64,000 nt of DNA, from the NCBI GenBank assembly GCA_010672585.1, contig JAAHGF010000002.1:62001-126000 (forward strand), in the 5' to 3' direction. The position numbers and the translations under genes are program-made. Numbering within the stretch: the first letter of the stretch is position 1; each line of letters starts with the position of its first letter. The notes under the pieces are model-generated. The model ran no database searches. It was not told the origin of the DNA and saw only the letters and a list, made by a program, of their open reading frames with translations. Source of the stretch: Okeania sp. SIO1I7. GTDB lineage: Bacteria; Cyanobacteriota; Cyanobacteriia; Cyanobacteriales; Microcoleaceae. Positions 4,201 to 35,821 of the stretch are shown here, one piece after another.

Positions 4201-4657
4201 TGGAATCTATTAAGAATATCCAGAAAAGAGGGAGTAGATAGTTATCCGGATATTACCTGCTCATGAACAATAGTTAACTGTTGGAATCTATATATTACCT
4301 GCTCATGAAGAATACTTAACTGTTGGAATCTATTAAGAATATCCAGAAAAGAGGGAGTAGATAGTTATCCGGATATTACCCGCTCATGAACAATACTTAA
4401 CTGTTGGAATCTATTAAGAATATCCAGAAAAGAGGGAGTAGATAGTTATCCGGATATTACCCGCTCATGAACAATACTTAACTGTTGGAATCTATTAAGA
4501 ATATCCAGAAAAGAGGGAGTAGATAGTTATCCGGATATTACCTGCTCATGAAGAATACTTAACTGTTGGAATCTATTAAGAATATCCAGAAAAGAGGGAG
4601 TAGATAGTTATCCGGATATTACCCGCTCATGAACAATACTTAACTGTTGGAATCTAT
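4201..4657 (+). repeat. 81-bp tandem repeat array
   Basis: There are five near-identical 81-bp units (starting at 4201, 4324, 4405, 4486 and 4567), one unit shortened to 42 bp by an internal deletion (4282-4323), and a 10-bp partial unit (4648-4657). Each begins TGGAATCTATTAAGAATATC and carries inverted 7-mers AATATCC/GGATATT that bracket a purine-rich loop. Units differ only by scattered C/T and C/G changes. Although 81 is a multiple of 3, all six frames contain stops, so it is non-coding. It ends 26 bp before the double-glycine peptide gene. Confidence 0.95.
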
Positions 4658-4683: not shown

Positions 4684-4833
4684 ATGCAAGAAACAAAAAA
4701 TAATCAACTATTTACTGAAATTTCTTCAGAAGAATCTGTCACTATTAATGGTGGTCATAATTTCGATGATTGTTACGGTTATAGTCGTTCTCAACGTTAT
4801 TATTGTCGCCCTGTTAGTTATCAACTACCGTAG
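4684..4833 (+). CDS. Double-glycine-leader small peptide (bacteriocin/RiPP-like precursor)
   Basis: This 49-residue frame has an acidic leader with the pattern LFTEISSEESVTINGG, a classic double-glycine processing site at residues 23-24. The core of 25 residues is rich in Tyr, Arg and Ser, with Cys at 30 and 41. In known systems such leaders are cleaved by the C39 peptidase domain of an ABC exporter; none is present in this window. A GAGG motif lies about 8 bases before the ATG. Immediately after the TAG, the +1 frame (4829-4888) continues with the same Tyr/Arg-rich composition and a Cys, ending in TAA. This suggests a frameshift has shortened a core that was once about 45 residues. It may still be functional in the short form. 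Confidence 0.6.
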   Translation: MQETKNNQLFTEISSEESVTINGGHNFDDCYGYSRSQRYYCRPVSYQLP

Positions 4834-4975: not shown

Positions 4976-5686
4976 ATGAAATGGCATACAATATTAAGAG
5001 ATAAAAATTCATTTTTTAACAGAATAGATATTAATTTATCTGGCATTGATGTGGGAATTTTAGGGGTTGATAATTGCGGAAAATCTGTGTTATATAACTT
5101 TATTCTTACCCATCAATTAAAGCATGGTATTGGGAGTACAAGCTCCAGAAAAAACCAAAAAACAATATATATAGAAATAAAATTTGAAAATTCAAAAGAA
5201 TCAATTATTAAATTAAGAAATTTTTTTGATGTAGGTGGTCAACGCGACCTCTATGCTTTGAAAAAAGATACTTTTAATCAGAGCTATTGTATTATTTATG
5301 TTGTTAGAAGTGATTTAATACTTGATATTGGTGGTACTCAAGACAATGATGTAATAAGAAAATATAGAGCTGCTCTTGAACTAGATTTTGCTAATATTAG
5401 CCAATGGCAAAGAGACTTGAATTTCTGGCAAAGAAATTCATTCTCAAAGTTAATTATAGTTGGTAATTATTTTGGTGAAATTGATAATGAAAAAACTGTA
5501 TCTGATTATTTAAGTAATCAAAAAGATTATCACAGATATTTTAGGGATCGTTTTACAGATATTACTGGTGGTCTATATTTTCCAAAAACAGAAATCAAAT
5601 GGGTCACTGGAACTCTCGTTTCTCAAAAATTTGCCACTGAATTAGTTCACGGAATACTTAAATCCTTAATCTCACAAGAAACATGA
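4976..5686 (+). CDS. Arf/G-alpha-like small GTPase
   Basis: This is a GTP-binding protein of about 236 residues. The P-loop GVDNCGKS and the G3 box DVGGQRD are both of the Arf/G-alpha type (compare GLDNAGKT and DVGGQ in Arf proteins), not the DTAGQ of Ras/Rab. A Thr-containing segment that could be switch I lies between them. The NKxD box is not obvious: the equivalent strand reads LIIVGNYFGE. I prefer the ATG at 4976 over an in-frame GTG at 4964; neither has a strong ribosome site. The stop overlaps the next gene by 4 bases (ATGA), which indicates translational coupling. It heads a four-gene cassette. It could act as a molecular switch at the membrane with the next gene's product; that role is inferred. 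Confidence 0.7.
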   Translation: MKWHTILRDKNSFFNRIDINLSGIDVGILGVDNCGKSVLYNFILTHQLKHGIGSTSSRKNQKTIYIEIKFENSKESIIKLRNFFDVGGQRDLYALKKDTFNQSYCIIYVVRSDLILDIGGTQDNDVIRKYRAALELDFANISQWQRDLNFWQRNSFSKLIIVGNYFGEIDNEKTVSDYLSNQKDYHRYFRDRFTDITGGLYFPKTEIKWVTGTLVSQKFATELVHGILKSLISQET

Positions 5687-6273
5687 CTACTGATTTGTAT
5701 TTTTATATTGTAAATTACAATAAAAATGTTCCTATTTATATTGTCAAAAATACCAGAACTGTTGACTCGGATAGTATAGAAGGTCAAGAAGTAATTAAAA
5801 GTATTGATAAATTAAATGTTGCTGGAATTGCGGAAGTTACAGAAAATCAAATAAATATTTTATCTAGTAATTTAGACTTTTATATTGAAGCTATGACTAA
5901 TAAGTTAGATGCAACTAAACGCCCGGCAAAAATAGGCATTAAAGGGAAATTACCTGCATCATCTTTAAATTACTACTTTGAAGACTGGGTTTTTGAAATC
6001 CTGAACAAAATTCAAGACTTTGCTAAAAAAATTGAACAACCAATTCAAGAAAATCAGTTAGAAACCATAGAGTTTAATTTGCGTAAGATTTATTATAAAA
6101 ATCAAGACAAAAGAAAATTTTTACGCATAGGTAAACTATTAATAAAAATTTTTACTCCTGTAATACTAACCTTAATAATCATCAAATACTTTTTTAGTGA
6201 AATGGAGTTAATTTTAGTAGGATTGTTAATTTCTATAAATAACGTTATTATGTTGCTAATAGAAGATAAATAA
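5683..6273 (+). CDS. Unknown membrane protein of the GTPase cassette
   Basis: This 196-residue protein is of no family I recognise. The first ~145 residues are soluble and mixed alpha/beta, with a Lys-rich linker around residues 140-150. They are followed by two closely spaced hydrophobic segments (about residues 150-168 and 174-192) that should form a C-terminal hairpin or two membrane passes, leaving the N-terminal domain cytoplasmic. It overlaps the GTPase stop codon by 4 bases, so the two are probably co-translated. This suggests a membrane partner or effector of the GTPase. Composition (AT-rich, Lys/Asn/Ile-rich) is like that of its cassette neighbours. Confidence 0.6.
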   Translation: MTTDLYFYIVNYNKNVPIYIVKNTRTVDSDSIEGQEVIKSIDKLNVAGIAEVTENQINILSSNLDFYIEAMTNKLDATKRPAKIGIKGKLPASSLNYYFEDWVFEILNKIQDFAKKIEQPIQENQLETIEFNLRKIYYKNQDKRKFLRIGKLLIKIFTPVILTLIIIKYFFSEMELILVGLLISINNVIMLLIEDK

Positions 6274-6282
6274 AGGAGATAT

Positions 6283-6591
6283 ATGACAGAAGAACATTCT
6301 TTTCCTTATGGATATGAAGCAAATATTCCAGTTGATAATCCAGGTGAACGTCAAGTTATTTTAGTTTTACCTACAGGTATGCCTGAGAGAATTAAGTACG
6401 ATCCAGTTTATAGAAAATTAAGAGATTCAATTTTAATTAAAAATACTAATAAAACCAAAAATGGGTTGTGTATCGTAGAAGAATCTATTGATTTATATGA
6501 TGAAAGTAGTCAAACTTTTTTACAACTCTTACAACAAAAAGGTTTGATTGAGTCTGGGAATATTCTTATTCAAAATGCCTATAATCGTTAG
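6283..6591 (+). CDS. Small unknown protein of the GTPase cassette
   Basis: This 102-residue protein has a strong ribosome-binding site (AAAGGAG, 6 bases before the ATG), the best in the cassette, so it may be made in excess over its neighbours. It contains a central strand-rich segment (RQVILVLPTG) and an acidic C-terminal half, with no signal peptide, membrane segment or Cys pair. I do not recognise the family. It starts 9 bases after the membrane protein gene and ends 6 bases before the next gene, which places it firmly in the same transcript as the GTPase. Confidence 0.55.
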   Translation: MTEEHSFPYGYEANIPVDNPGERQVILVLPTGMPERIKYDPVYRKLRDSILIKNTNKTKNGLCIVEESIDLYDESSQTFLQLLQQKGLIESGNILIQNAYNR

Positions 6592-6597
6592 GATTAT

Positions 6598-7134
6598 TTG
6601 AAATTTGATGCAGAAAAAATTAAGACTGAAGTTATTTTCACAAAATGGCAACACTATACAATAGTTGCTGGTTACTTAGGTGCGAAAAAAGTTGAATTGA
6701 TTAATCAAAAAGATCGAGAGTTTGAGTCTAATAAAGATTTTAATTTGAAATCTAGTTTTAGCAGTTTACTTAACTTGTTGAATATAAGTGGAGATTCTTT
6801 TACTAAAAGTGTAGAAAAAGAACTCTACAAGATATCAGCAGAATTTAAAGGATCTTTACCAGATATAGAATCAGCTAAACAATATATTTCTGAAAACTTT
6901 TTGTCTCAAGACAATGATATTAATTTTCTAGTTAAAAATCGTGAAAAGAATAACCTAATGTTAAGCTTTGAACAAAATTTAAACTTATTTTCACAAATTG
7001 AGAACGGTTTTAGTTTAGCAATGAATATAAAAGTACCTCAATATTTAGTAGATGGAAAAGGGGAGTATAAACAAACTAACAAAAAAATTGAAAAATTTAT
7101 TACAAAAGTTGTTTTAACTTTTTCTGAATCCTAA
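6598..7134 (+). CDS. Unknown soluble protein of the GTPase cassette
   Basis: This 178-residue protein has a probable TTG start at 6598, directly after the preceding stop. There is no ATG near the front of the frame and the reading is consistent from this point. It is Lys/Glu/Asn-rich with no signal or membrane segment. A middle segment (KELYKISAEFKGSLPDIESA) and a Phe/Leu-rich part (SFEQNLNLFSQIENGFSL) suggest an alpha/beta fold, but I recognise no family. It is the last gene of the cassette; after it the sequence returns to repeat-rich spacer. The TTG start makes the exact N-terminus uncertain. Confidence 0.5.
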   Translation: MKFDAEKIKTEVIFTKWQHYTIVAGYLGAKKVELINQKDREFESNKDFNLKSSFSSLLNLLNISGDSFTKSVEKELYKISAEFKGSLPDIESAKQYISENFLSQDNDINFLVKNREKNNLMLSFEQNLNLFSQIENGFSLAMNIKVPQYLVDGKGEYKQTNKKIEKFITKVVLTFSES

Positions 7135-7801: not shown

Positions 7802-8014
7802 TTATTTTCCTATTTCTTCTAATAATTCAATCACTTGTTCTTGAGTAACGCTAGGAAAACCATCAAGAAAATCATCAATAGACTCTCCTGCTTTTCAATA
7901 GTCAAAAAGTGTTTCTACTGGCACTCTCGTACCAGCAAAAACTGGGGTGCCTCCCATAATTTCAGGAGATGTACTAATTATTGAAGAGTTTTTAAACATA
8001 CATAACTTCTCCAT
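7802..8014 (-). pseudogene. DUF433 antitoxin-like protein with an in-frame stop
   Basis: The encoded pattern PEIMGGTPVFAGTRVPVETLFDY, then KAGESIDDFLDGFP, then a C-terminal EQVIELLEE, is that of DUF433 proteins. These are about 75-residue DNA-binding antitoxins, usually paired with a PIN or DUF5615-type toxin. A TGA at 7895-7897 breaks the frame exactly where most members have Trp or Leu (DYW/DYL), with no frameshift on either side, so a single substitution killed or altered the gene. No toxin gene is seen next to it. Its first 23 codons and the spacer before them are repeated twice more upstream (see the repeat at 7947-8273). Confidence 0.7.
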
Positions 8015-8273
8015 CTTGACAACTGACAACTGATAACTGATAACTGAAAGAGTGCCTCCCATAATTTCAGGAGATGTACTAATTATTGAAGAGTTTTTAA
8101 ACATACATAACTTCTCCATCTTGACAACTGATAACTGATAACTGATAACTGATAACTGAAAGAGTGCCTCCCATAATTTCAGAAGAATTACTAATTATTG
8201 AAGAGTTTTCAAACATACATAACTTCTCCATCTTGACAACTGATAACTGATAACTGATAACTGATAACTGAAA
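7947..8273 (-). repeat. Triplicated 5' end of the DUF433 gene
   Basis: Three head-to-tail copies start at 7947, 8052 and 8164 (spacings 105 and 112 bp). Each contains GTGCCTCCCATAATTTCAG, the codons for MEKLCMF and ATAACTGATAACTGATAACTG words. The first spacing is a multiple of 3, so copies 1 and 2 are fused in one frame giving a 74-residue chimeric frame; the third is out of frame. The difference in spacing is due to the number of GATAACT words, which suggests slippage or recombination there. Confidence 0.9.
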
Positions 8274-9993: not shown

Positions 9994-10392
9994 ATGAAAG
10001 CTTATATTAAGTTAGAAGGAAATACTACTAATGATGATTCTAAAAGTTTGAACGAACTTGCTAATCTTATTAGGAAAGACTGCGACCTGTCTGTAGAAAT
10101 TGAAGAAAAAAAGCCAGAATCTGGAGATAAAGATGGTGGTTTAGCAATAGCAATAGCGATCGTCTCATTGGCGGTAGCTACTATTCAAACTTTAATCTCT
10201 GTGTTCCAATACTGGCAATCAAAAAGACCTAAGTATTCTTTATCTATCACTTTTCATAGTCCAGCTCGGAAAGAAACTTTATTGCTTGAAAGTTCATCAA
10301 CACAAGAAATTCAAGAAATGATATCTCTACTGAAGTCTCAATCTTTCCCTAAGTATGAATATATCGAAGTTCAAATATCAAAACATCAGTAA
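9994..10392 (+). CDS. EACC1-like effector-associated component
   Basis: This 132-residue protein starts with a short strand-rich N-terminal part. A hydrophobic segment follows at about residues 49-68 (GLAIAIAIVSLAVATIQTLI), introduced by the Gly/Asp-rich turn ESGDKDGG, and then a C-terminal strand-rich tail (YSLSITFHSP, YIEVQISKH). This layout is that of the EACC1 (effector-associated constant component) proteins found next to caspases, trypsins and NTPases in bacterial conflict systems. It ends 6 bases before the caspase gene, so the two are co-transcribed. It probably recruits or anchors that protease; the exact mechanism is not established. Confidence 0.65.
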   Translation: MKAYIKLEGNTTNDDSKSLNELANLIRKDCDLSVEIEEKKPESGDKDGGLAIAIAIVSLAVATIQTLISVFQYWQSKRPKYSLSITFHSPARKETLLLESSSTQEIQEMISLLKSQSFPKYEYIEVQISKHQ

Positions 10393-10398
10393 AGAACA

Positions 10399-11925
10399 AT
10401 GTCAGAAGACCTTCCAAAAAGAATTGCTTTAGTCTTGAATTCCTTAACTGGTGAAGAACTCAAAGGAGGAAAGCAAGATGTTTCCAGAGTTTACTCTATT
10501 CTGACAGATCCACAAAAGGGGATGTGTCTAGATAGTGGATCTACAGCAGTATACGACTGTGAAAGTAGAGGCAGCTTTGAAAAAATTTTGAGGTCTACTC
10601 TCAAAGGTTGGAATATCAAAACTCAGCTAGTCTTCTACTTTTCAGGACATGGAGATATTAGGAATAATCTGTATTGTCTAAAAATGGGGTTAGATAATTC
10701 AGAGTGGTATCCGTTCAAAAATTTAATGAATGAGTTAGACTTGGCAGGAGTTAGACGTGCCATTATTATTCTTGATGCTTGCCATAGTGGAGCTGCTCTT
10801 GAAGGAAGCAAAAGTTTAGGTGATAATATGTTGAATTCTATAAAATATGATATTCCTCAAGGAATTACTATTATTGCTTCGTCTCTAGAGACTCAACAAA
10901 GTAAAGAACTACCGGATGGTTCGTCTGGAGTGTTCACTGAGATTTTTTGCACGGGTATTGAAACGAGTCTTGATGGAAAAGGAACAAATGATGGAAAAAT
11001 TTATGTTGAAGATATTGTTAGTTATATTAATCATAAATTAGAAACAGAAGAACAATACTCAAATTTTGTGCAACGTTCAGCTTTTTCTCTTGATAGAGCT
11101 GAGAAAAAAATTTGGATTGCTAAAGGGAAAAAGAGGGAAAATTCTACAGTTTTGCATAGTCAAGATTTTCTAGAGAATGAAATAGAGAAAATAGTTCAGA
11201 AATACGTTACTAAGTTTGTTCAAAGTCAAGGTAATACGACTAATTATCGGGTTGCTGACTTAACTAAATTTGTCAAAGATAATGTTCAGAATGAAGTTGG
11301 TGCATATATTGACTTAAAGCTAGAGAAGGAGCTTAAACGCTTTCCTCATGCTATTCTAACTCCTACTCCCCCTCCTCCGCAACGACTGTCGAGTTTAAAT
11401 TGGCGAACGGCAGCTATCATTAGCGGTGTAATTGGAGTATTGAACTTAGCTGGTTTGGTTTTAAGTAACTATCAAAATCAACAACTCAATCAGATTTTTG
11501 TAATAGAACCAACACCTACATCATCTCAGCTACCACTAGAAGCATCTATCTCACGGGAGAAAGCTGTTAATTTGATTCAGAAATACTTAGAAGCAAAAAA
11601 AGTAACCTTTGCTCCACCCTATAATAGTCAAATTCTTGCTGAAATAGCCACTAGCGAGTTTTATCAAAAGGCAGTTGGTACAAGAAATTGGTTGCAAAGC
11701 AATGGTGCATACTATCGCTATAAACCTTACACGATTGAAGTTGAGGAGTTTGTTTTATCTGGTAATACAGCAGAAATTAAAGTAAAGATAACGGAAGATA
11801 TCACCCTTTACCATTCAGACGGTTCAATTGACAGAAGTAATAGTTATTTGAAAACTGTAACGGTGATCTACAACATGAGACTGATTAATGGAAACCCGAA
11901 AATTTATGACTCTAAAATAATTTAA
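10399..11925 (+). CDS. Caspase-like protease (C14) with membrane segment and ARC6/IMS-type C-terminal domain
   Basis: In this 508-residue protein the N-terminal caspase fold (about residues 5-250) shows the catalytic His in FYFSGHGD (about residue 83) and the catalytic Cys in LDACHSGAA (about residue 128), so the protease looks intact. A helical linker and a Pro-rich stretch (PTPPPPQ) lead to a single membrane segment at about 338-358. The last ~120 residues (from SREKAVNLIQKYLEAK) resemble the IMS/ARC6-like domain of cyanobacterial membrane proteins. Bacterial caspase homologues are effectors of cell suicide or signalling; Arg or Lys specificity is usual but not shown here. It follows the EACC1-like gene by 6 bases. 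Confidence 0.8.
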   Translation: MSEDLPKRIALVLNSLTGEELKGGKQDVSRVYSILTDPQKGMCLDSGSTAVYDCESRGSFEKILRSTLKGWNIKTQLVFYFSGHGDIRNNLYCLKMGLDNSEWYPFKNLMNELDLAGVRRAIIILDACHSGAALEGSKSLGDNMLNSIKYDIPQGITIIASSLETQQSKELPDGSSGVFTEIFCTGIETSLDGKGTNDGKIYVEDIVSYINHKLETEEQYSNFVQRSAFSLDRAEKKIWIAKGKKRENSTVLHSQDFLENEIEKIVQKYVTKFVQSQGNTTNYRVADLTKFVKDNVQNEVGAYIDLKLEKELKRFPHAILTPTPPPPQRLSSLNWRTAAIISGVIGVLNLAGLVLSNYQNQQLNQIFVIEPTPTSSQLPLEASISREKAVNLIQKYLEAKKVTFAPPYNSQILAEIATSEFYQKAVGTRNWLQSNGAYYRYKPYTIEVEEFVLSGNTAEIKVKITEDITLYHSDGSIDRSNSYLKTVTVIYNMRLINGNPKIYDSKII

Positions 11926-12089
11926 TAAAAATGAATTTGTTTAAAACTGAGACATTGTAGTTTAAAAAACGGTTAAAGTTTATCATAAATGCTGTTTCTG
12001 TTGCTAGAATAATTGTTTTGTTTGGAATGGTAGTCCTAGAGTTTTTACCTAAAAATTCGCCTCTTGATGTCATATATAATTAGACTGAA

Positions 12090-12172
12090 AAGTCGTCATT
12101 GCAACAATAGGAAGCAATATCGTACAACCCTTGAGATTGCTTCCTTCCACCCCGTTACAGTCGCAATGACTT
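12090..12172. repeat. Small inverted-repeat element (AAGTC..TCATTGC ends)
   Basis: An 83-bp stretch begins AAGTCGTCATTGC and ends GTCGCAATGACTT. Its termini are imperfect inverted copies, and inner words GGAAGCAAT/ATTGCTTCC pair as well, so the whole can fold into one long hairpin. It is not coding. The rest of the 11926-12422 spacer holds a HIP1 octamer and no gene. Confidence 0.6.
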
Positions 12173-12422
12173 AGAATAACTAATTATCAGGATTGATGTC
12201 AGTGGGATAGTCAATCTATAGTCCAATCTAACTTAGCTCAACAATAGCGATCGCCTACAATTATAATCACAGAAATTAGGTAAATATTCTATGATTATAG
12301 TGTACCACAAAGAATGTATAATTGTGTATAATATTGTCCAATTATTTGACTTCAGTAGTTAGCCCGATTAAATTATTCAATATCTCATAAACAAAAATTA
12401 ACACTTAAGGACAAACAAAAAA

Positions 12423-16889: not shown

Positions 16890-19856
16890 TTACTGTTGTT
16901 GTTGACAAGCTCCTTCCGACTGAGCAACTGCTGCAGCAAATTCTGGATTTTGTTGTAGGTCTTCTGGAACTTCTCTTGCTTCATGTAAATTAATAGTATT
17001 TAACCAGATGGTTTGATTATTCCATTTGATATTACTGAGGTCGGCATCACTGAGGTAGGCATCAATGAGGTCGGCACCACTGAGGTTTGCACCACTGAGG
17101 TTTGCACCTCTGAGGTAGACACCACTGAGATCGGCACTAATGAGGTCGGCACTAATGAGGTCGGCATCATTGAGGTCGGCACCTCTGAGATTTGCACCTT
17201 TGAGGTCAGCACCACTGAGGTCGGCACCACTGAAGTCGGCACTAATGAGGTCGGCATCATTGAGGTCGGCACCTCTGAGATTTGCACCTTTGAGGTCAGC
17301 ACCACTGAGGTCGGCACCACTGAAGTCGGCACCACTGAGGTCGGTACCACTGAGGTCAGCACGAATGAGGTAGACACCACTGAGGTCGGCACCACTGAGA
17401 AAACCACCTAATATTTTCAAAAAAGCAACAACCTCAAGACACTCGCTATAACCAATAATCCTCAATAGTCTTGTTCGATCAAAATCTTCACTATCAGGTT
17501 TACCACAAGGATGAAAATGCAACTTCTCCTGCAATTTCTCCTGAGACCTCCCATAACGATGCAACTTAAACAACAAGATCATTACATTCAACCCCGTATA
17601 AATATCCACCTGACGTTGCCCAGACTCAATACCCCACTGCCACAACTGCCTTGCCTTTTTCTGAGGTAAAACTTCCTCCCTCTCCTCAATAAACTTCCCA
17701 TCACACCAGTCTAAATAAAACCCATGCAACCGCTCAAACAACACCACCAACTCAACCTGACTTTTCACCAACAACGCCATTAAATATTCGACAACTTCCG
17801 CTGTCAAACTGTCATAACCAAAAAGATCGTAAACCCGCCACTCAAATTCCTCATCAGACACCACATAAGTCTTACGTCGCTTCCCAGTTTTCTCCGTCAA
17901 ATCCTCCAGACTTTCCACCATCCGTTTTGCACAGAGAAACTCACCAAAACTCTTGTGGAAAAACTCCACCGAATTTTCTGCCTTTGCTGCCGACTTCAAA
18001 TAAAAGGCAGCTAAAGCATTTTTCAATCCATCCTCTCGTTCATCTTGCCTAGCTTTTTTAATTAAATTCTGCAACTCTTTATATCCCTGTTTCAGCAGTC
18101 GGTCTTCTATCATTTTTATTGCAGCATATTCTCCTCCAGACTGCACCACACATAACCCTGCTTCTGCTAACAAAATTTCTAAATCTTCCGGGCCCAACTT
18201 TGTAATTTCCGGATTAAGATTTCTGCCATCTTCTACTCGCTGTTTTTCCAGTACCCATTCCAATGCTTGCTCATAAATCAAAACTTTCGCTCCACCAACA
18301 TCAGCATTAGCAAACATCTCTACTTTTAACTGCTTATCCCGGTGCATTGCAGCAAGCAAATACAACAAAAGTGGTTCTCTTGCCAATTCCTGAACCTGCT
18401 TCGGACATTCTTGACTCTGCAAAAATTCCCGGAACTTTTCTGTTTCCTCTTGTGCAACAATAGTCTGCCACTTCTCAAACCACTGTTGCTGAATTTCGTC
18501 ACCCATAGGCAAAATACTTACCCGTTCTAAATTAGGAGGCATCAACCTTTCAATGCCATAAAGTGCCAAAGGTCTACCAGTAATTAAAACCCGATGACCG
18601 CGTTCGTTATTTTCTGCTGCCTGTTTCTGAAACTGTGCCACCTGGTCTAAAAATACTTTCAACTCATTACTAGCGCCACGTTCCAACAATAATTCATCAA
18701 ACCCATCGAGCAAAAACAGAAATCGAGTATTGTGGTCTGTCAACCAACCACTATCAGTCTTAATAAAATCCCAACCTACTACATCAGCTAAAGTTTCATC
18801 AATATTTGCAGCAAAATTTCTTATATCCCGTAACCGAATTAAAATCGGAGTATATATAGGATGTAATTCCTGACGTACCCAGTCGGCAAACATTCGGCAA
18901 AATACACTTTTTCCTCTTCCCGGTCCTGCTTGAATAAATAACACTTGTTTGTCTTTGTTTTCATCCAACAAAATTGTTTTTGCCCACTCCTCAATATTCT
19001 GGGGTGTTGCTGTTTGTTCAACTTCTCCATTAGAGTTAACAGTTTTTACTTCAAGTGGCACATAAATTTGTCGAAAAGTGAATTTTTCATCAAATACTTT
19101 TTCTTGTGGTTTAGTGGCAATATTCTTCTCCAAATATTTATCAATACTGCCATAAATTTCCAAATCTTTCTGCCACCCATCCCCATAAATTCCGGCTAAT
19201 TTATTAGCATTGTCTTTCACCTCTACCACTGCTTCTTTCATATAACGGTGGGTACTGCGAGAGATTCTTTCGGCAACAATTTTGGCTTTATTTTCAGCTA
19301 AACCAGATTCTTTCAAACGAGCAAATAAAATCTCATCAAACTTTTTTCTCAAAGGTGAATCATAAAAACAAATCAAAGTATCCTTAGCATATCGGTCATT
19401 AAAATCAATATCTTCATCCAACTTATTGATCTGTTTTTTAACCGACTCTGAAGCCTCAATTTCTATCAACTTATCTTGAATTTCTGGAAAATCTATAAAG
19501 AATTGTCTCATACTTTCTAAATAAGCCACCTGAGCCACCAACTGCACCGCATCTTCTAAAGTTGGTTCCTTGCCAGTTTTATAAACAATAAAAGCAATAA
19601 TTCCAGTTGCAATAGGCAAAAAAGGTAAACCCGCTCCGGCAACTTTTCCCAGGGGAGAATTTAACACATCCAAAACAGAATCAATATTTTCAATAAAAGG
19701 TTTTAATTCTTTAGCATCCTTATTTTCTTGTAGAGCTTTTGCTATTTCCAAAACCGCCTTACCAGACTCAACCCCACCTTTAACAGTTTCCGATAAATTC
19801 AATTCTATTTCTGTGTTGAGAACTCGCCGAATCTTCTGCCAGAGTTTACTTGCCAT
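16890..19856 (-). CDS. NACHT NTPase with C-terminal pentapeptide repeats
   Basis: The product has 988 residues from the ATG at 19856 (AAGGAAG site upstream; a longer reading from 19925 would start inside a repeat). Residues 1-250 are a helical N-terminal domain with one hydrophobic stretch (LPFLPIATGIIAFIVY). The NACHT domain has Walker A AGPGRGKS (about 310-317) and Walker B FLFLLDGFDEL (about 380), then a helical region. Pentapeptide repeats (A(D/N)LSG/RG type) span about 820-945. NACHT-STAND proteins of bacteria often act in phage defence, oligomerising when a sensor domain binds its target; here the beta-helix is the likely sensor. A 98-bp stretch of the repeats is perfectly duplicated with period 90. 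The effector role of the N-terminal domain is unknown. Confidence 0.85.
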   Translation of the reverse strand: MASKLWQKIRRVLNTEIELNLSETVKGGVESGKAVLEIAKALQENKDAKELKPFIENIDSVLDVLNSPLGKVAGAGLPFLPIATGIIAFIVYKTGKEPTLEDAVQLVAQVAYLESMRQFFIDFPEIQDKLIEIEASESVKKQINKLDEDIDFNDRYAKDTLICFYDSPLRKKFDEILFARLKESGLAENKAKIVAERISRSTHRYMKEAVVEVKDNANKLAGIYGDGWQKDLEIYGSIDKYLEKNIATKPQEKVFDEKFTFRQIYVPLEVKTVNSNGEVEQTATPQNIEEWAKTILLDENKDKQVLFIQAGPGRGKSVFCRMFADWVRQELHPIYTPILIRLRDIRNFAANIDETLADVVGWDFIKTDSGWLTDHNTRFLFLLDGFDELLLERGASNELKVFLDQVAQFQKQAAENNERGHRVLITGRPLALYGIERLMPPNLERVSILPMGDEIQQQWFEKWQTIVAQEETEKFREFLQSQECPKQVQELAREPLLLYLLAAMHRDKQLKVEMFANADVGGAKVLIYEQALEWVLEKQRVEDGRNLNPEITKLGPEDLEILLAEAGLCVVQSGGEYAAIKMIEDRLLKQGYKELQNLIKKARQDEREDGLKNALAAFYLKSAAKAENSVEFFHKSFGEFLCAKRMVESLEDLTEKTGKRRKTYVVSDEEFEWRVYDLFGYDSLTAEVVEYLMALLVKSQVELVVLFERLHGFYLDWCDGKFIEEREEVLPQKKARQLWQWGIESGQRQVDIYTGLNVMILLFKLHRYGRSQEKLQEKLHFHPCGKPDSEDFDRTRLLRIIGYSECLEVVAFLKILGGFLSGADLSGVYLIRADLSGTDLSGADFSGADLSGADLKGANLRGADLNDADLISADFSGADLSGADLKGANLRGADLNDADLISADLISADLSGVYLRGANLSGANLSGADLIDAYLSDADLSNIKWNNQTIWLNTINLHEAREVPEDLQQNPEFAAAVAQSEGACQQQQ
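17145..17332 (-). repeat. 90-bp perfect duplication inside the pentapeptide region
   Basis: Bases 17145-17242 and 17235-17332 are identical (98 bp, offset 90). 90 bp is six pentapeptides (30 residues), so the frame is kept. Perfect identity at synonymous positions points to a very recent expansion. Confidence 0.95.
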
Positions 19857-20285
19857 AGTTAATATTTCTTCCTTTAATTTTTGCACAATATATAGCGCTA
19901 TGCGCAGGCAACAGGCAACAGGCAACAGGCAACAGGCAACCCACCCCTAACCCCTCCCAGGAGGGGAATAAAAAACGATAATATAAGACTTTTAGCTATT
20001 TGGCCCCTCCTGCAATTTGTAAATATACCAGCGCTCATTGCTATATTTGTATATCTACAGTTTGATTTCTGTAAATTCCTGATGTTAAAAAAATTGTAGT
20101 CCAGTAGTGGACTGACACATCTAATTTTATGCATTAGATTATTGAGGTGGGGGCGAGTTTACCCAGTCGTGGTTGACACCATTAACTTAACGCGGAACTC
20201 GCCCCTACTATTGTATGTTTACTTCCCTCCCACACTTCCCACACCTCCCACACTTCCCACACTTCCCTACTCCCCTACTCCCCTA
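19857..20285. other. Spacer between convergent/divergent gene blocks
   Basis: No gene is seen. The stretch contains a heptamer microsatellite (GCAACAG)n at about 19905-19938, one CCCCTCCCAGGAGGGG palindrome (about 19946-19967), and a CT-rich tract CCCACACTTCCC repeated at 20229-20285 next to the end of the SelD fusion gene. Confidence 0.6.
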
Positions 20286-28345: not shown

Positions 28346-31300
28346 CTACCCATGCCACCACGCTTCATGACCGTATAGCCAACCTTTTCCCTCGAGCCAG
28401 CTCTGATAACCCGGCGTCGTTTTAGTATCTATTCCTTCGATAAATAAATATTTTCGTGGAATATCTCCCTCATAAGCCCATGCCCCATTTGTAGATTTTC
28501 CACCCAATTGTCCCATGTTATCACCCTTTAAAGTTGATGTGTTTAATCCTTGCTTTCTAATTCTGACTCTTACTGCCCCTCCCCTTGACTCAATACCATC
28601 TGCACCTTTCATTCCTTTTTCTGAACTATCCCACATAAAAACGTGCTGGTGATGTCTTAGTTTTTCACTGCCTTCAGACAGCTTAATATTCCTACGTTCT
28701 GCTGTTTGTAAGCCGTTTTCGTTCAAAGATTTACGCAATGTATTTAACCCTGAATCATTTTTATCTATGGCCATATGAGTGTACTCTTGAGTAGGAGGTT
28801 TTAACAAATTAGCACATGCTTTCATCATATTATGTACGAGTACACGATTGCCAGACACATAATAAGTATGCGCCTCATCAACCTCGAAGTTATAAACCCG
28901 CGTACTGTCTGGGCGAGACTCTAAATCAGTAACAGTAGCTACTTTTCCGCCAAGCCGAACTAAGGTCTCACCAATCTGGAGGTCTTCAGCCTCGACCCAA
29001 CCGTTAGCGGTATAAAACTCGTGTTCTGGAGTCGTAGCTATAACCTCTTCTCCCACCGTCACAACTATCGACTCGGGCGCTATCCGAGTAAACAAGTGCG
29101 TGACGGGATACTCTCCTTCCTCACCAGTCTTCTCGTTATAAGCAAGGACGGTATCGCCGACGGCAACTTCTTCAATAGCCTTTTCTCCTTCAGCAGTAGC
29201 AACCTCAGTGCCAGCGACAAACGAAGCACAACCACCGACTTCGGCATACTGTTTGCCCCCTTTCTTCAGTCGCGTTCCCGCATCTATCCCTAAGGACAGA
29301 ATATCCATTCCTAACTGAATGCCATTTTCCACAGAAGGATCGGTAATAGTGAGGACAGCGTTGTAACCCGTATCAAGAGCAGTGACAACCGGACCTATGT
29401 ATGGAGCTGCAAATAACGCACCCGTGCCAAAACCAATCCCAAAAGCTGCCGCCACATCGCCGGCGTCACCCCCTCCCATCGCGGTAAAGGATGCATTCAT
29501 CGTACCCATGATACCCCCAGCGAGGGCCATATTTGCAGCCGCCGTAGCGGTAGTGCTCAGACCGGCAGCAGCGATCGCGCCCCCGGCAGCAATTCCTACC
29601 CCTGCCGAAGCACCACCAAGAGCCGCACCACCGACAACACCGCCCCAAGTTTTACCAGAACTCCAATCCCAACTGGCCGGGTTAAAACTGTCGTTAACAG
29701 TGGCACCACCCATGTAAGCACCTACTGTCGCCCCGATGACAATAATGGTCAAAGTCACGAACTCTTGGCCATTAGGGTCAATCCCACTAAGAGGATCGCC
29801 GTTACCATAAACGTAAGGACTAAAGTATTGACTTGCCGGGTCTGGGGTGAGGAAGCGCCCTAAATTGGCATCGTAGTAACGCGACCCAAAATAGTACAAC
29901 TCGCTATTGCTGTCGTATTCCTTGCCCGTAAATTTCGGTCGGAAATTATCTTCACCCGTACTGGAGTCTGCTATCGCCCCATAAGGTTCGTAGTTAACTT
30001 GGCTGACGATATTAGCATTCGCGTCGGTGACCAAAGTTGTACTACCCAATTGGTCGTAGTGGAAGTAGAGCACTTGTCCCGCTATGGGATAACCACCGCC
30101 GCTATCTGCGGGTGTCAATTCTGCGAGCAAATTCGGCCCGCTCAAACTGACTGAGGAAAAGGAAATCAGAGCTAAAGCAAAGGAGATAGGACGATGCCCG
30201 GTTTGCAGTAGCCAGCCTTTTGCTTGGGGAGCTATCCAGTCTTCGGCTGTTTCTGGTGTGATCCAACCCATCGTGACGGAGATTTGCGCCACCATTGCTC
30301 GACTTTTACCTGTCCAACTCTCCCTCGAAGCAGAGCGCCAGAAGCGATACATCCAAATCCACAGGGCGCATAATAACCAAGCTACCAAGACCCAAGCAAC
30401 AAGAATTTGCGCCACATTATTGCTGAAGGCTAGTTGGTTGAACTTTGCAGATAAGAATTGCGCCAACCCTGTCCAAGAATGGGGGTCGTAAAGTTCGGCT
30501 TCGAGATTGGTGCTGTTGCCCTTGATAGCAGCGATGAGGTTAACATCGTCTCCATCTTTAGAGATAGCCGCGATCGCCCCTTGAGGACCGACGATATATT
30601 TGGTGTGGACTTGAGAACTGTCGGCATTACGCACTACCTCGTAGAGAGGAGCTACATAATAAGTTACCGTTCCATCCGATTCTATTTTGCTCAAGCGATC
30701 GCCAGAGTCATCATAGGTGAATTCGTTAACGGTGCCCGAAGTTTCCCGGTCTACTTTGAGCAACTGGTCTTGAGCGTCGTAAGTGTAAGTCCAAGACCCG
30801 TCCTGCGTTGTATTGCCGTTATCATCGTAAGTTGCATCCGCAAGTTGGTGTTTCTTATCGGGTTTGTACTCGTAGGTGGTGTCGTTGCGTTTGGTGATAT
30901 TACCAGCAACATCGTATTCGTAGCTCAGGTCTTCGTAGGGGTCGCCGTTTGCACTGCTCAATCGTCCGACAATATTGTAACCAAAGTTCTGGTTGAGTCC
31001 TTTGCTAGCATTGTCAGAAATGGCGAGAAGTTTATCAGCTTTATTCCAAGTGTAGCTGAAGTCGAAGTAGGTCTGAGCCGCTTTCGTCGTCTTACTGGTA
31101 GCAATCCGTCCGAGGGCATCGTAGGTGTAGTTCGACTCAACTAAGTTGGGATTGTAAGTAACCTTGCCAATCCCTCCGAGGGCATTGTATTCTTCGTAGG
31201 TGGCATAAGCTGTAAAGTCATTTTCCCCTGTATCTTTGAGGGCTACTTCAGACAGTTCTCCACCTTCATTGTAGGTATAGCGAACTATCGCGCCGTCGGG

Positions 31301-34300
31301 GTAAGTGACGTTATTGGGACGACCCGCTGCATCGTAGGTATATTGACTGATGTAGGTTTCCTGACTTCCATTCCCATCAGTGTCGATCGCTACCTTTTCT
31401 TGTTTAAGCTGACCGCGATTGTCGTAAGAAAACGTATAGGTAGCTTCAGCTATAACGATTTTCGTCAGCGCTCCTTTCCCATTCTCTACGCTCGGATCGT
31501 CGTACTCATAGACGATGGTTGTTGTCGGAGTAGAGTCGCTTTCCTGGTCGTAAACCTCTTTCTCAATGACGCGACCCAAAGCATCGTACTCTAAGCTGAT
31601 TTTCTGACCTTTGGCATCAATTTGACTGGTAACTTTACCGTTATCGTTGTAGAAGTATTGGTTTGTTCCCGTTTCTCTGGTCGTTTCCGAGATTACTTGC
31701 CCCAAGGAGTTGTAAACCATAGTTGTCTCTTGTCCGAGGGGATCGGTTATACCGATCGCTTGCCCGAGGCGGTCGTAGGAATAGGAGGCACTACTCTCAT
31801 CAGGTGCTATTTTCTCCTTCTCCCAACCACGAGACGTATTTTTGACCAGCGCATCAACTAAATTATTTCCATCCGGAGCATCGCTAGGATCGGGATAGAA
31901 AAAAGTAATGTTGCGAGCGTCACCCAAGCTGTCGTAGTCCGAGCGAGCGATTGCATTCACCGGATTAGTGGTTTCTATGACATTGCCGCGAACGTCGTAT
32001 TCGTATGCAAAGAAGTTTTCCACATCGCCAGTGTAGTAGGGGAGGAATTCCTTTCCAACTTGTCCGACCGAGTTAAATTCTTGCTTGCTCGCGATCGTCT
32101 TGCCGTCATGGCCTTTCCCTTCACTTTTATAAGTCCGCCCCAATCCGTCGATATATTCTTCTTCCCAAAGCCAAGTATCGTCTGGAGTGTCTTGACCCTC
32201 CCACTGAGTTCGATACCAAGTTTTGATGGAAAGTCCGTTTTCTCCGTCTAACAACTCGCTTTTGCTCAGAGTAACTAAATCGCTGCTGTCTGGTTTGATG
32301 CCTCGAACTTCCAATACTCGACCGAATCCATCGAGCCCACTGTCTGGAATCAGCATAGCCGTATTCCCGTTAGCATCGATGATTTTGGTTTTAATACCAA
32401 ATTTCGGCTCGTATTCCGTGCTTACCACCAAACTGCCATTGCTCGTTGCTGGAGTTTCGTGTCGTGCAGGAAACGTGTGATAAGTACTGTCGTAACTAAT
32501 GCTGCTAGTATTGTTTGAAGAATCTGTCAAGGTAATGACATTACCGTAAACATCATAGCTCATGGTCGTATTCAGCCATTTCCCTTGGGTTGTATCCGGA
32601 CTGCTTTTATCCTGCCAGTTGCTATGACCAGTTAAATTCATCAGATCGTCATAACTGAATTGCTCCCAACGCAGGTCTGTTGCCGCGTTCCAGTTACTGA
32701 AGTTCCCACAATCCTCTGCCGAACTTTGAATGGTTTTTTGGTTGCTTGGGAAAAAGCTCTTCCACCACTCCTCTCCCGTGCCTTCAGCGTAGGCCAAACA
32801 GGTGTAAGCGTTGTCATTGGGATCGTCTATATCTCCTAAATCAGAGATAGCGACCGCATTTTGATAATTGTCATCGTACTCGTAGGACCGCTTGAGGGTG
32901 TAGTTATAATTACCCGCAGTATAGCTTTCCATTGTTACGTCAGTTTGCCAGAATTTATAAATTCCGTCTGCATCCTTTGAATACTCGTAGTCTGAAGACA
33001 TTTTACCCAATAATTGATCGGCTTGGATGTCTTGAATTTCGCGACCGCTAACCAATCCCAACAGAGGGAAGTCCGTATGATAGTTTGTCGTCGTTTGCGT
33101 CTGATTTTGAACGTCAACCAAGGTTGTTTTCTCAAATCCTAGCCAACCGCGATGGCGGTCTATTTTTGCCCCTTCATACTGGTGTTGGTAGGTAAAGGTA
33201 TTGACTGGATTCGTTTCCGATTCCGCAATTTCGTGTTTCGATACGACATAAATAGGGGTTTGGATATCGACTTTTGGATAGACCGCTCCAGTTCCTTTGG
33301 TATAAACATTACTGTCTGTCAGGGGAGCGTACTCAATGCTAATGACTTCCCCAAGACCATTGACAATCTTTGTGATCAGATCGCTTTTGTCTTTGGATAG
33401 AGAGACATAGACTCCCTCGTTTCCAAAGCCGACCACATCCGCTTGTCCATCTCCATCACTATCGGCCATCATGCGAATACTATTTGTTGTCGTCCATTCT
33501 CCAGTCGGACCCTCTGAAGTAAAATCATCAATCCAGGTATCGTAGGGACCAAAAGTGACCGCTCCATCGGACAGAGACACTTCAACGCCTTGATTTCCAA
33601 AACCAACTATGTCTGAGAAACTATCGCCGTTGACATCTGCCATCATGCGCAAATCATCTTTTGTAGTCCATCCCCCAGCGGGGCCATTAGAACCAAAATA
33701 ATTAATCCATAAACTCTGCGGATTGAAAATTATTCCATCGGACAGAGACACTTCAACACCATCTCGACCAAAACCCACGATGTCTGAGAGACCATCTCCA
33801 TTCACATCAGACATTGTGCGTATATAATTCTCGTCGTTCCATCCCCCCGCAGGACCATTCCAGCCAAAATAATTAATCCACCGTCTGGCTCCCTCATCTT
33901 TCTGGAAACTCTCTCCATCGGATAGCGCTACATAGACTCCATCGTAACCAAAACCCACCACATCTAATAAACCATCTCCATTGGCATCGGCCATGGTGCG
34001 CGGATACTTGCCTATGAGCCATCCTTCATTATTGTTGCTGCCACTATAATTTCTATAGCCAAAATCGTCGATCCACTCTTGCGCTGGATCGAATCCCTCT
34101 CCATTAGACTGAGACACATATATTCCATTATTGCCAAAACCGATCACGTCCGAGCGACCGTCCCCATCGATATCTGCCATCAGGCGTATATGCTTGTCCG
34201 TAGTCCAGCCATCATTGTTGATATTGTTATTGAGGACACCAAACTCATTAATCCAAATCTCGGCTGAATCAAATCCTATTCCATTAGACCGAGAGATATA

Positions 34301-35821
34301 CACTCCATTGTCTGCAAAACCCACGATATCTGAGAGACCGTCCCCATCAACATCTGCCATCAAGCGGGGATTCTCATTGATTAACCACCCCCTCTGGTTG
34401 ATGTTTCTGTTGCCACGACCAAACTCGCTAATCCACTTTTGGGATTCATCGAAATCTATTCCATTGGACGGAGATACATAAACTCCATCCTCTCCAAAAC
34501 CAACGATATCTTCGCGACCATCCCCATCGACATCAGCCATCAAGCGGATATAGTCCCCCGCATTCCATTGCCAAGGGTGGGTCGATATGTTTCCAAAGTC
34601 ATCGTTCCATTTACTTGATTCACTAAATGCCAGTTCTCCATCCTGATAGGTTAACTTGGTTGCTGGTAGACACGCTCCTGCGGAATCGCATTCTTGTAGG
34701 TCGATTAAGCGACTGAAATTGGTTCCCGGACCGTATTCGTAAATCAGGTGATAATCCTTCACTAAGTTGGTTGCTGCTGCTAGGTTGCTCCCGTCTCCAT
34801 CCAGATCAACGTAGGTTTTTATATGTGCCAGTCGTCTTGTAGTTTCTGCTTTCGAGCCTCCTGCATACACGATAATCTTGTCATCGCGGTCTTCGTAGTC
34901 AAACTTCACCAATCGCTGAGGAGCAACTCCCGAGTTTGAGTTTCCCGTGTAGCGAATTTCCGTGGGAAAATACCCTAGAAATGTCGTGCTTATACTCCTT
35001 TTCACTCGAGTGCTTGGTTCTTGAGCGTCTATTTGATAGCTAGCTTCGACAATGTTACCATTGCGATCGCTCATCTGATTTAGCGCCCAGACTCGCACTG
35101 CTTCATCCTCTCGATCTTCTGCTGCTAAGATCTTTGAGTCTTCTGTATTGCCAAATTCTAGTTGATGACCATCTTTAGTCGTGAGGCTAAACCATCGCGG
35201 CCCGTTTTTGCCATCAACTGTATGGGAAACCACCTTTGCCCATGTTTCCCGTTCCGTTCGATATTCCGTACCGTCGGCCCCATATTCACCATTGACCGCT
35301 ATTAAACGCTGTCCGTCCCAACAGAAGCGATCCTCGCTATCGAAGTTCACTCCTCCTTTGGTCCCATCGGTGGCTATGGTTTTACCGCACCGCGCGATCG
35401 CCGACAGTCCTGCTAGCTGCCAATCCATTCCCAATAGGCCATTCTGCTGTTGGTTGTTATAGACCAAAGATAAATTTGGCTGTACTCCATTAATTCCTGG
35501 AGGGACTTCTATGGAAACAGAATAGGTTGCGCCTCCGTTCCCATTCACCGCAAACTCTCCCGGAATTGTCCCTAATTCTTGGCTGATAGCTGGTACTGCC
35601 ATTGCTGGTGTATTTCCCCAGAACGGCCAAGTAGGTGAAAATGAGAAAAGTATAAATATTAGGCTTAAAGCGATCGATTTGAAACACTTAAAGCACCTTG
35701 AATTGCTGCCACCAGTGTGACCCGTTGGGTCAATCATATCTGGTATCAGACCCTCTTTACTGGAGCTGTTGGCTGTCCTATTTTCCTTGGAAAGCCCAAC
35801 AAGCTTACTTATAGAAATCAT
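28346..35821 (-). CDS. SpvB/VCBS/RHS-repeat polymorphic toxin with Hint domain and novel C-terminal tip
   Basis: This is a 2491-residue protein. In order it has: a long N-terminal leader with a signal-type hydrophobic segment (about 48-75); an SpvB-like domain (PGEFAVNGNGGATYSVSIEV onward); seven FG-GAP/VCBS repeats of the type MADVDGDGxxDIVGFG (about 410-810); a Tc-toxin-like middle; many YD/RHS repeats; a hydrophobic segment (AWVLVAWLLCALWIWMYRF); the RHS core ending YYFGSRYYDANLGRFLTPDP; an Ala/Gly-rich hydrophobic stretch; a Hint autoprocessing domain (2198-2331, CASFVAGTEV to VLVHN); and a 160-residue tip (2332-2491). The RHS shell encloses the tip until release. The tip has HHQHVFMWD and a GGAVRVRIR strand; I recognise no toxin family. 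No frameshift is visible. Confidence 0.9.
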   Translation of the reverse strand: MISISKLVGLSKENRTANSSSKEGLIPDMIDPTGHTGGSNSRCFKCFKSIALSLIFILFSFSPTWPFWGNTPAMAVPAISQELGTIPGEFAVNGNGGATYSVSIEVPPGINGVQPNLSLVYNNQQQNGLLGMDWQLAGLSAIARCGKTIATDGTKGGVNFDSEDRFCWDGQRLIAVNGEYGADGTEYRTERETWAKVVSHTVDGKNGPRWFSLTTKDGHQLEFGNTEDSKILAAEDREDEAVRVWALNQMSDRNGNIVEASYQIDAQEPSTRVKRSISTTFLGYFPTEIRYTGNSNSGVAPQRLVKFDYEDRDDKIIVYAGGSKAETTRRLAHIKTYVDLDGDGSNLAAATNLVKDYHLIYEYGPGTNFSRLIDLQECDSAGACLPATKLTYQDGELAFSESSKWNDDFGNISTHPWQWNAGDYIRLMADVDGDGREDIVGFGEDGVYVSPSNGIDFDESQKWISEFGRGNRNINQRGWLINENPRLMADVDGDGLSDIVGFADNGVYISRSNGIGFDSAEIWINEFGVLNNNINNDGWTTDKHIRLMADIDGDGRSDVIGFGNNGIYVSQSNGEGFDPAQEWIDDFGYRNYSGSNNNEGWLIGKYPRTMADANGDGLLDVVGFGYDGVYVALSDGESFQKDEGARRWINYFGWNGPAGGWNDENYIRTMSDVNGDGLSDIVGFGRDGVEVSLSDGIIFNPQSLWINYFGSNGPAGGWTTKDDLRMMADVNGDSFSDIVGFGNQGVEVSLSDGAVTFGPYDTWIDDFTSEGPTGEWTTTNSIRMMADSDGDGQADVVGFGNEGVYVSLSKDKSDLITKIVNGLGEVISIEYAPLTDSNVYTKGTGAVYPKVDIQTPIYVVSKHEIAESETNPVNTFTYQHQYEGAKIDRHRGWLGFEKTTLVDVQNQTQTTTNYHTDFPLLGLVSGREIQDIQADQLLGKMSSDYEYSKDADGIYKFWQTDVTMESYTAGNYNYTLKRSYEYDDNYQNAVAISDLGDIDDPNDNAYTCLAYAEGTGEEWWKSFFPSNQKTIQSSAEDCGNFSNWNAATDLRWEQFSYDDLMNLTGHSNWQDKSSPDTTQGKWLNTTMSYDVYGNVITLTDSSNNTSSISYDSTYHTFPARHETPATSNGSLVVSTEYEPKFGIKTKIIDANGNTAMLIPDSGLDGFGRVLEVRGIKPDSSDLVTLSKSELLDGENGLSIKTWYRTQWEGQDTPDDTWLWEEEYIDGLGRTYKSEGKGHDGKTIASKQEFNSVGQVGKEFLPYYTGDVENFFAYEYDVRGNVIETTNPVNAIARSDYDSLGDARNITFFYPDPSDAPDGNNLVDALVKNTSRGWEKEKIAPDESSASYSYDRLGQAIGITDPLGQETTMVYNSLGQVISETTRETGTNQYFYNDNGKVTSQIDAKGQKISLEYDALGRVIEKEVYDQESDSTPTTTIVYEYDDPSVENGKGALTKIVIAEATYTFSYDNRGQLKQEKVAIDTDGNGSQETYISQYTYDAAGRPNNVTYPDGAIVRYTYNEGGELSEVALKDTGENDFTAYATYEEYNALGGIGKVTYNPNLVESNYTYDALGRIATSKTTKAAQTYFDFSYTWNKADKLLAISDNASKGLNQNFGYNIVGRLSSANGDPYEDLSYEYDVAGNITKRNDTTYEYKPDKKHQLADATYDDNGNTTQDGSWTYTYDAQDQLLKVDRETSGTVNEFTYDDSGDRLSKIESDGTVTYYVAPLYEVVRNADSSQVHTKYIVGPQGAIAAISKDGDDVNLIAAIKGNSTNLEAELYDPHSWTGLAQFLSAKFNQLAFSNNVAQILVAWVLVAWLLCALWIWMYRFWRSASRESWTGKSRAMVAQISVTMGWITPETAEDWIAPQAKGWLLQTGHRPISFALALISFSSVSLSGPNLLAELTPADSGGGYPIAGQVLYFHYDQLGSTTLVTDANANIVSQVNYEPYGAIADSSTGEDNFRPKFTGKEYDSNSELYYFGSRYYDANLGRFLTPDPASQYFSPYVYGNGDPLSGIDPNGQEFVTLTIIVIGATVGAYMGGATVNDSFNPASWDWSSGKTWGGVVGGAALGGASAGVGIAAGGAIAAAGLSTTATAAANMALAGGIMGTMNASFTAMGGGDAGDVAAAFGIGFGTGALFAAPYIGPVVTALDTGYNAVLTITDPSVENGIQLGMDILSLGIDAGTRLKKGGKQYAEVGGCASFVAGTEVATAEGEKAIEEVAVGDTVLAYNEKTGEEGEYPVTHLFTRIAPESIVVTVGEEVIATTPEHEFYTANGWVEAEDLQIGETLVRLGGKVATVTDLESRPDSTRVYNFEVDEAHTYYVSGNRVLVHNMMKACANLLKPPTQEYTHMAIDKNDSGLNTLRKSLNENGLQTAERRNIKLSEGSEKLRHHQHVFMWDSSEKGMKGADGIESRGGAVRVRIRKQGLNTSTLKGDNMGQLGGKSTNGAWAYEGDIPRKYLFIEGIDTKTTPGYQSWLEGKGWLYGHEAWWHG

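Follow-up and report, generated by a model that had tools for sequence, protein, structure and literature searches.

A mobile, patchily distributed three-gene cassette headed by a divergent small GTPase in cyanobacteria

Introduction

Do the closely packed reading frames at 4976–7134 of a cyanobacterial contig form a gene unit in their own right and, if so, what might a small GTPase be doing at its head? The stretch of DNA analysed here (hereafter the window; 64,000 nucleotides, G000:C22:62001-126000) belongs to a genome of 9.5 Mb (G000), and the nearest named loci are those of Okeania sp. SIO2C9 and SIO3B5 (n = 2). A first-pass annotation, made from the letters alone, had proposed a membrane-linked cassette of four genes headed by an Arf/G-alpha-like GTPase. 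All counts of genomes and loci given below include the window's own genome.

An in-frame stop codon divides the third gene

The proposed reading frames (4964 (GTG) or 4976 (ATG) to 5686, 5683–6273, 6283–6591 and 6598–7134) are all present, and re-reading the sequence returned the same tight spacing, with a 4-base overlap between the first two frames and gaps of 9 and 6 bases thereafter. They resolve into the following features.

4976..5686, + strand: gene A, a predicted divergent small GTPase of 236 aa counted from ATG 4976 (alternative start GTG 4964), called from G1 (GVDNCGKS), the G2 Thr, G3 (DVGG) and a G5-like TGTL, without NKxD
5683..6273, + strand: gene B, an undescribed protein of 196 aa with a soluble N-terminal part and a C-terminal hydrophobic pair (predicted TM hairpin), called from its ORF and hydropathy, without a credible Pfam, NCBIfam or PADLOC match; adjoins A in 12/13 loci
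6283..7134, + strand: gene CD, an undescribed soluble protein, a single frame broken by an in-frame TAG; called from a continuous 282-aa ORF in loci L022 and L023, without a credible family match
6589..6591, + strand: the in-frame TAG, which interrupts CD in the window's genome

The last two frames had been counted as genes three and four. Both pieces (6283–6591, 102 aa; 6598–7134, 178 aa) lie in the same frame with the TAG and two codons between them, and the sister Okeania loci L022 and L023 carry the uninterrupted 282-aa ORF, 92–93% identical to the window over its whole length; we therefore treat the cassette, A-B-CD, as three genes spanning ~2.2 kb. A four-gene unit is further ruled out by the 102-aa piece, which as a query matched its own genome only (1/386 phylum genomes). 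The CD profile match likewise runs across the stop codon in the window ('1 TAG'). Because CD is interrupted, the cassette copy in the window has probably lost its function or works poorly; translation might restart at TTG 6598. A promoter and terminator scan returned no terminator and 24 promoter-like sites, compared to 17.7 ± 4.1 in shuffles, and an Rfam search gave no usable lead.

Gene A is predicted to be a divergent P-loop GTPase

Judged by its motifs, A appears to be a divergent P-loop GTPase that retains G1–G3 and a G5-like motif. Across the 15 aligned A sequences used for motif counts, G1 (GxxxxGK[ST]), the G2 Thr and the G3 Asp are each found in 15/15 and DxxG in 14/15, and a motif resembling G5 (G[ST]L or similar) is present; the members scored are 224–242 aa long. 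The GVDNCGKS and DVGGQR boxes noticed at the outset are indeed present in the window, and the impression that NKxD is altered was correct: window A reads NYFG at this position, and the full G4 motif [NT]KxD occurs in 0/15 relatives (N or T kept in 15/15, Lys in 0/15, Asp in 6/15, namely L027, L030, L125, L034, L026 and L082). With the Asp retained in six sequences and the Lys in none, guanine specificity may differ between A members.

Kinship to Arf or G-alpha proteins, as originally suggested, was not supported. DVGGQ with its catalytic Gln is restricted to 2/15 A proteins, both from Okeania, and the Gln right after DxxG is missing in the other 13. Window A reaches 22.2–22.8 bits with the Pfam Arf model (cut-off 22.3), a match that says little for A, since 12 of 14 control genomes, those of E. 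coli and B. subtilis included, also hold sequences above the cut-off of this model. Pfam matches on 13 A members were weak throughout, comprising Roc in 13 (best 7.2e-7), Arf in 12 (best 1.5e-5), MMR_HSR1 in 12, and Ras. With Roc, window A scores 24.5–25.4 bits, below the cut-off, compared to 89.6–95.9 bits at four other places in the same genome; a small Ras-like GTPase of this genome reaches 93 bits (Roc) and 48 bits (Arf), and hhalign aligned the A profile to it over 79 columns (probability 84%, E 7.6e-6). An Era-type housekeeping GTPase was rejected as an identity for A (NCBIfam era, 13 bits versus a cut-off of 116). PADLOC gave weak matches only on the 13 members, with PDC-S01 in 7/13 (best 8.6e-5) and PtuA, HerA and others weaker still.

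By hydropathy, an N-terminal hydrophobic helix is found in 10/13 A proteins and is missing in the two Okeania ones and in L031. A membrane helix followed by a G domain recalls SRbeta, and G-alpha and Arf chains head the PDB sequence and profile matches of A, over the G1–G3 half only. As differences from the Arf, SRbeta and G-alpha group, DVGGQ is no feature of the family and the full NKxD is lost. The helix and the PDB matches could point to a device for membrane remodelling, insertion or cargo docking, in which a TM-anchored Arf/SRbeta-like GTPase would recruit CD to the membrane. We regard this as improbable: the Arf resemblance is unspecific in bacteria, no cargo genes were recognised, and the cassette is accessory and missing from most of the relatives searched.

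B and CD lack credible relatives in family libraries

The partners of A had been placed outside recognised families, and the library searches agree. B had no credible family match in Pfam (12 members) or, for window B, in NCBIfam and PADLOC; its azurin and RNase III matches (E at least 0.2) were discarded. For CD, Pfam, NCBIfam, PHROGs and PADLOC gave no credible family, and the weak matches that did appear were set aside (NCBIfam best E 0.0083, in 2/13; Pfam best 0.023, in 3/13; PHROGs best 0.036; PDB best 0.68 with a 13-row profile). PADLOC returned no CD match at all, nor did the PDB sequence search with a 14-row profile. Links from B to an EACC1-like protein and from CD to a DUF1822 protein or a TRADD-N protein were also rejected, with hhalign probabilities of 0.1–0.3%. 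No effector domain was recognised in the cassette proteins.

The C-terminal membrane hairpin that had been read into the second gene is supported by hydropathy, with a hydrophobic pair within residues 146–195 of window B and a corresponding pair in 12/12 B proteins scored; the L082 protein, shorter at 177 aa, lies outside this count. Hydrophobic membrane segments occur in 0/13 CD proteins, consistent with a soluble protein. An AlphaFold2 model of CD built from 14 sequences (mean pLDDT 71.0, pTM 0.72) is mixed alpha/beta, with a long helix at 94–115 and weak stretches at 1–13 and 141–153. Via alignments, the TAG corresponds to residue 89 of this model, within a predicted strand (87–93), and would therefore not fall at an obvious domain border of CD.

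The gene order recurs and is under purifying selection

Searches with A as a single query matched 9/59 relatives, and B and the 178-aa CD piece each matched 10/291 order genomes. The A profile (E ≤ 0.001) extended this to 30/291 order genomes, with full-length matches in 12 genomes (13 loci, E ≤ 1e-42); the other 18 genomes divide into G016, with a 61-residue fragment, and 17 with partial P-loop matches (E at least 9e-5). Whether the genes ever occur together elsewhere, a point on which the first-pass annotation had made its proposal depend, is answered by the order A-B-CD in 12/13 full-length A loci, other families included; at the remaining locus, in G002, A is accompanied by a truncated CD without B. 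Outside the 291-genome sample, the same gene order is found in G601, G001 and G004; in G004, A and B contain stops. The CD profile was found in 6/386 phylum genomes, near-full in three (among them the window, with its TAG) and partial in three (G481, G006 and G255). Pairwise distances among 11 loci agree closely between A, B and CD (matrix r 0.94–0.97), as plain common descent would also produce. Separate trees of A, B and CD agree on the g3 group, on the group of L029, L032 and L033 and on the pairing of L023 with L031, and differ in where they place L034, L025 and L082. Beyond Cyanobacteriota, the search drew on records of phages, plasmids and viral contigs and on a single pattern scan with A: the A profile found nothing in phage records, the cassette was found neither in plasmid records nor in viral contigs, and the degenerate-pattern scan of genome contigs with A returned only the two Okeania sisters.

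In nine pairs each, dN/dS was 0.33–0.84 for A, 0.25–0.68 for B and 0.23–0.39 for CD; the Okeania values are much the same, with a minimum of 0.18 for the second part of CD. No value reaches 1, and the cassette is under purifying selection. Given that the order recurs in other families and that dN/dS is below 1 for all three proteins in every pair tested, a chance origin of the genes or their order is very unlikely. With predicted membrane segments in A and B and a recurring order, the tight, membrane-linked, GTPase-headed cassette of undescribed partners survives from the first reading in its three-gene form. A exceeds B in dN/dS in 8/9 pairs and CD in all 8 shared pairs. The faster evolution of A fits a sensor under pressure; relaxed constraint fits too.

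The cassette is mobile, patchy and repeatedly decaying

As an accessory cassette, A-B-CD moves horizontally, is patchy within genera and repeatedly decays. In genus g3, nucleotide homology between sites is limited to a ~2.8-kb block comprising a divergent gene, A, B and CD, which ends just past the stop codon of CD; inspection by eye showed no obvious target duplication or inverted repeat. Within the 7–8 kb fetched, the site-1 permease gene stands without the cassette in G289, G027, G033, G601, G024 and G015, and in G006 all that remains of the cassette beside it is the C-terminal 52 residues of CD. Near-full CD is present in 5/10 g3 genomes (a sixth has a remnant only) and in 2/14 of the family of G182. 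Between families, CD identity of L029 (family f1) to L032/L033 (family f8) amounts to 96–97%, compared to 87–93% within g3.

At the window's own site, 3/5 Okeania genomes (G000, G001 and G004) carry the cassette; G003 has a gap of ~0.4 kb in its place and G002 has 4.7 kb of other DNA. Across the Okeania trio, dS is 0–0.16 for cassette parts versus 0.24–0.27 for the flanking dehydrogenase gene, which suggests that exchange of the cassette probably postdates the divergence of its hosts. Its low GC content (0.25–0.28, window 0.379) adds little to the case for mobility, as near neighbours range from 0.31 to 0.41.

The divergent gene of the g3 block (L024 6095-6670, - strand; copies in L027, L028, L030 and L125) accompanies the cassette. 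It measures 169 aa from the printed start in 4/5 copies and 198 aa in L027, and has a helix-turn-helix character by eye, with a single weak Sigma70_r4 match in one copy.

Decay takes different forms: L022 (8001-9313) has several in-frame stops in A and B and an open CD, opposite to the situation in the window, and CD is cut short in G002 and G006. These stops and shortened copies, together with the TAG in the window's CD, make it an even bet that the window locus is a decaying relic or that its TAG is an assembly error. Either would be compatible with the family-level readings considered here; at other loci, members of the family are intact, and selection on them is purifying.

Mobility also bears on the idea of a selfish, addiction-type cassette that follows toxin-antitoxin logic and maintains itself rather than defending its host. 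The cassette is compact, mobile and AT-rich, a DUF5615 gene is present at L028, and ORFs that we take to be PIN- and DUF433-like adjoin some copies. Three genes with a GTPase switch are at odds with this idea, and the loss or breakage of cassette parts in several genomes argues against strict addiction, so that we hold this account to be the least probable of those considered.

A-B-CD differs from the nearest known systems

Closest in kind are the conflict systems centred on GTPases (Kaur et al. 2020, PMC7159879), the AP-GTPase systems (Kaur et al. 2021, PMC8195603) and the Rup/MglA type. Each has a defining feature that A-B-CD was tested for and lacks, and we assign the cassette to none of them.

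According to PMC7159879, GTPase-centric conflict systems are mobile neighbourhoods that pair a GTPase with a dedicated partner and are often membrane-linked, and DO-GTPase/GAP1 systems are described as nearly completely absent in cyanobacteria. A-B-CD shares with the latter the mobile GTPase, the dedicated partners and the membrane link, but the variable effectors of known conflict systems have no counterpart, all three genes being constant. The DO-GTPase/GAP1 Pfam models matched neither window A, B and the CD pieces nor the B and CD members, and were not among the best 25 of 32 Pfam families for A members.

Rup Group 1 GTPases, as described by Wuichet and Sogaard-Andersen 2014 (PMC4316618), lack the G3 glutamine and have conserved unknown partners, namely a coiled-coil protein, a protein in which TM and OmpA domains are frequent, and a signalling output. 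A-B-CD resembles this description in combining a small bacterial GTPase, mostly without the G3 Gln (13/15), with undescribed partners; A differs in lacking the full NKxD and in often carrying a TM helix, and B and CD have no Pfam match to an OmpA or signalling-output domain. That bacterial small Ras-like GTPases often have dedicated partners, a membrane one in Rup Group 1 among them (PMC4316618), would suit a signalling or polarity module in MglA/MglB or Rup style, with A relaying a membrane signal from B to CD and no role in conflict. The distribution, however, is patchy, mobile and decaying, and B and CD, the immediate neighbours of A, have no Pfam match to a roadblock (MglB), kinase or c-di-GMP domain; we consider such a module unlikely, though less so than the remodelling device.

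With Roc GTPases (ROCO), A shares matches to the general Roc model in 13/13 members but is a stand-alone small protein of 224–242 aa without a Roc-COR polypeptide, and no COR domain was matched in window A or among the best 25 of 32 families for A members. Within the family libraries and the open-licence papers searched, A-B-CD and its partner families are undescribed.

Genomic neighbourhood and proposed function

Conflict-type genes lie near some copies. The window contains an EACC1-like gene and a caspase gene (9994-11925, + strand); the former scores 20.9 bits against a Pfam cut-off of 23.6, and the latter 39.2 bits, above its Pfam cut-off, and 66.8 of 140 with the NCBIfam model for EACC1-associated caspases. 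At L082 (3223-8448, + strand), two genes run divergently from the cassette, the first with HTH-like, TRADD-N and DUF1822 parts, the second of CHAT-NACHT-HEAT-NCAB1 type. Other loci have a DUF5615 gene (L028), an integrase-fragment gene or ordinary genes nearby. Large cyanobacterial genomes may commonly contain caspase, NACHT and CHAT genes. On the loci annotated, these neighbours are at most suggestive of a conflict role.

A conflict (defence) role, to which genomic context and the pattern of evolution point, is nonetheless the likeliest, if unproven, reading of A-B-CD. At slightly below even confidence, we propose that the cassette is mobile, probably conflict- or defence-like, and codes for a membrane-tethered GTPase switch, A, which has B as its integral membrane partner and CD as its soluble one. 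The mechanism is modelled on proposals for GTPase-centred biological-conflict systems and assumes that A, B and CD would form a complex and undergo a switch cycle. Its own N-terminal helix or, for A of the Okeania type, partner B would tether A to the membrane, and in one nucleotide state A would stay off until a cue arrives. This cue, perhaps recognised by the fast-evolving A itself, would alter the nucleotide state of A, whereupon B and CD would be rearranged at the membrane and act on it, causing a permeability change or arrest.

A bolder version of the conflict reading, which we put forward as a tentative possibility, casts the cassette as an undescribed mobile immunity module of multicellular cyanobacteria, with membrane-anchored A, which lacks the full motif for guanine specificity, as a fast-evolving invader sensor that signals to the hairpin protein B and to CD as a new soluble protein; setting it apart from DO-GTPase, ROCO, MglA and Rup systems belongs to this version and is equally tentative. 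If the conflict reading is true, the cassette, built on another GTPase and on two partner families that lack a credible Pfam match, would fill the cyanobacterial gap in GTPase-centred conflict systems noted in PMC7159879. Its small size (three genes, ~2.2 kb) makes the cassette directly testable in laboratory cyanobacteria.

Other features of the window

Several further observations were made around the cassette. The caspase gene encodes a C-terminal ARC6-like IMS domain, and G002 (L093) lacks most of the EACC1-like/caspase pair (window 10158-12241), its flanking sequences there lying almost next to each other. Upstream of A, a 49-aa ORF (4684-4833, + strand) has a GG-type leader, EISSEESVTINGG, and presumably resembles a peptide (RiPP) precursor; a close copy is present in L022 and none was found in L023. 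An 81-bp tandem repeat (4292-4657; 4.5 copies, 97% matches; Rfam negative) lies directly upstream of this ORF. Downstream of the cassette, three copies of a 105–112-bp tandem repeat (7895-8273) overlap a short minus-strand ORF, which we take to be a broken DUF433-type gene. Further along, two proteins were recognised by eye, one NACHT-like with pentapeptide repeats (16890-19925, - strand), the other RHS-like, 2491 aa long and containing an intein/Hint-like stretch (28346-35821, - strand).
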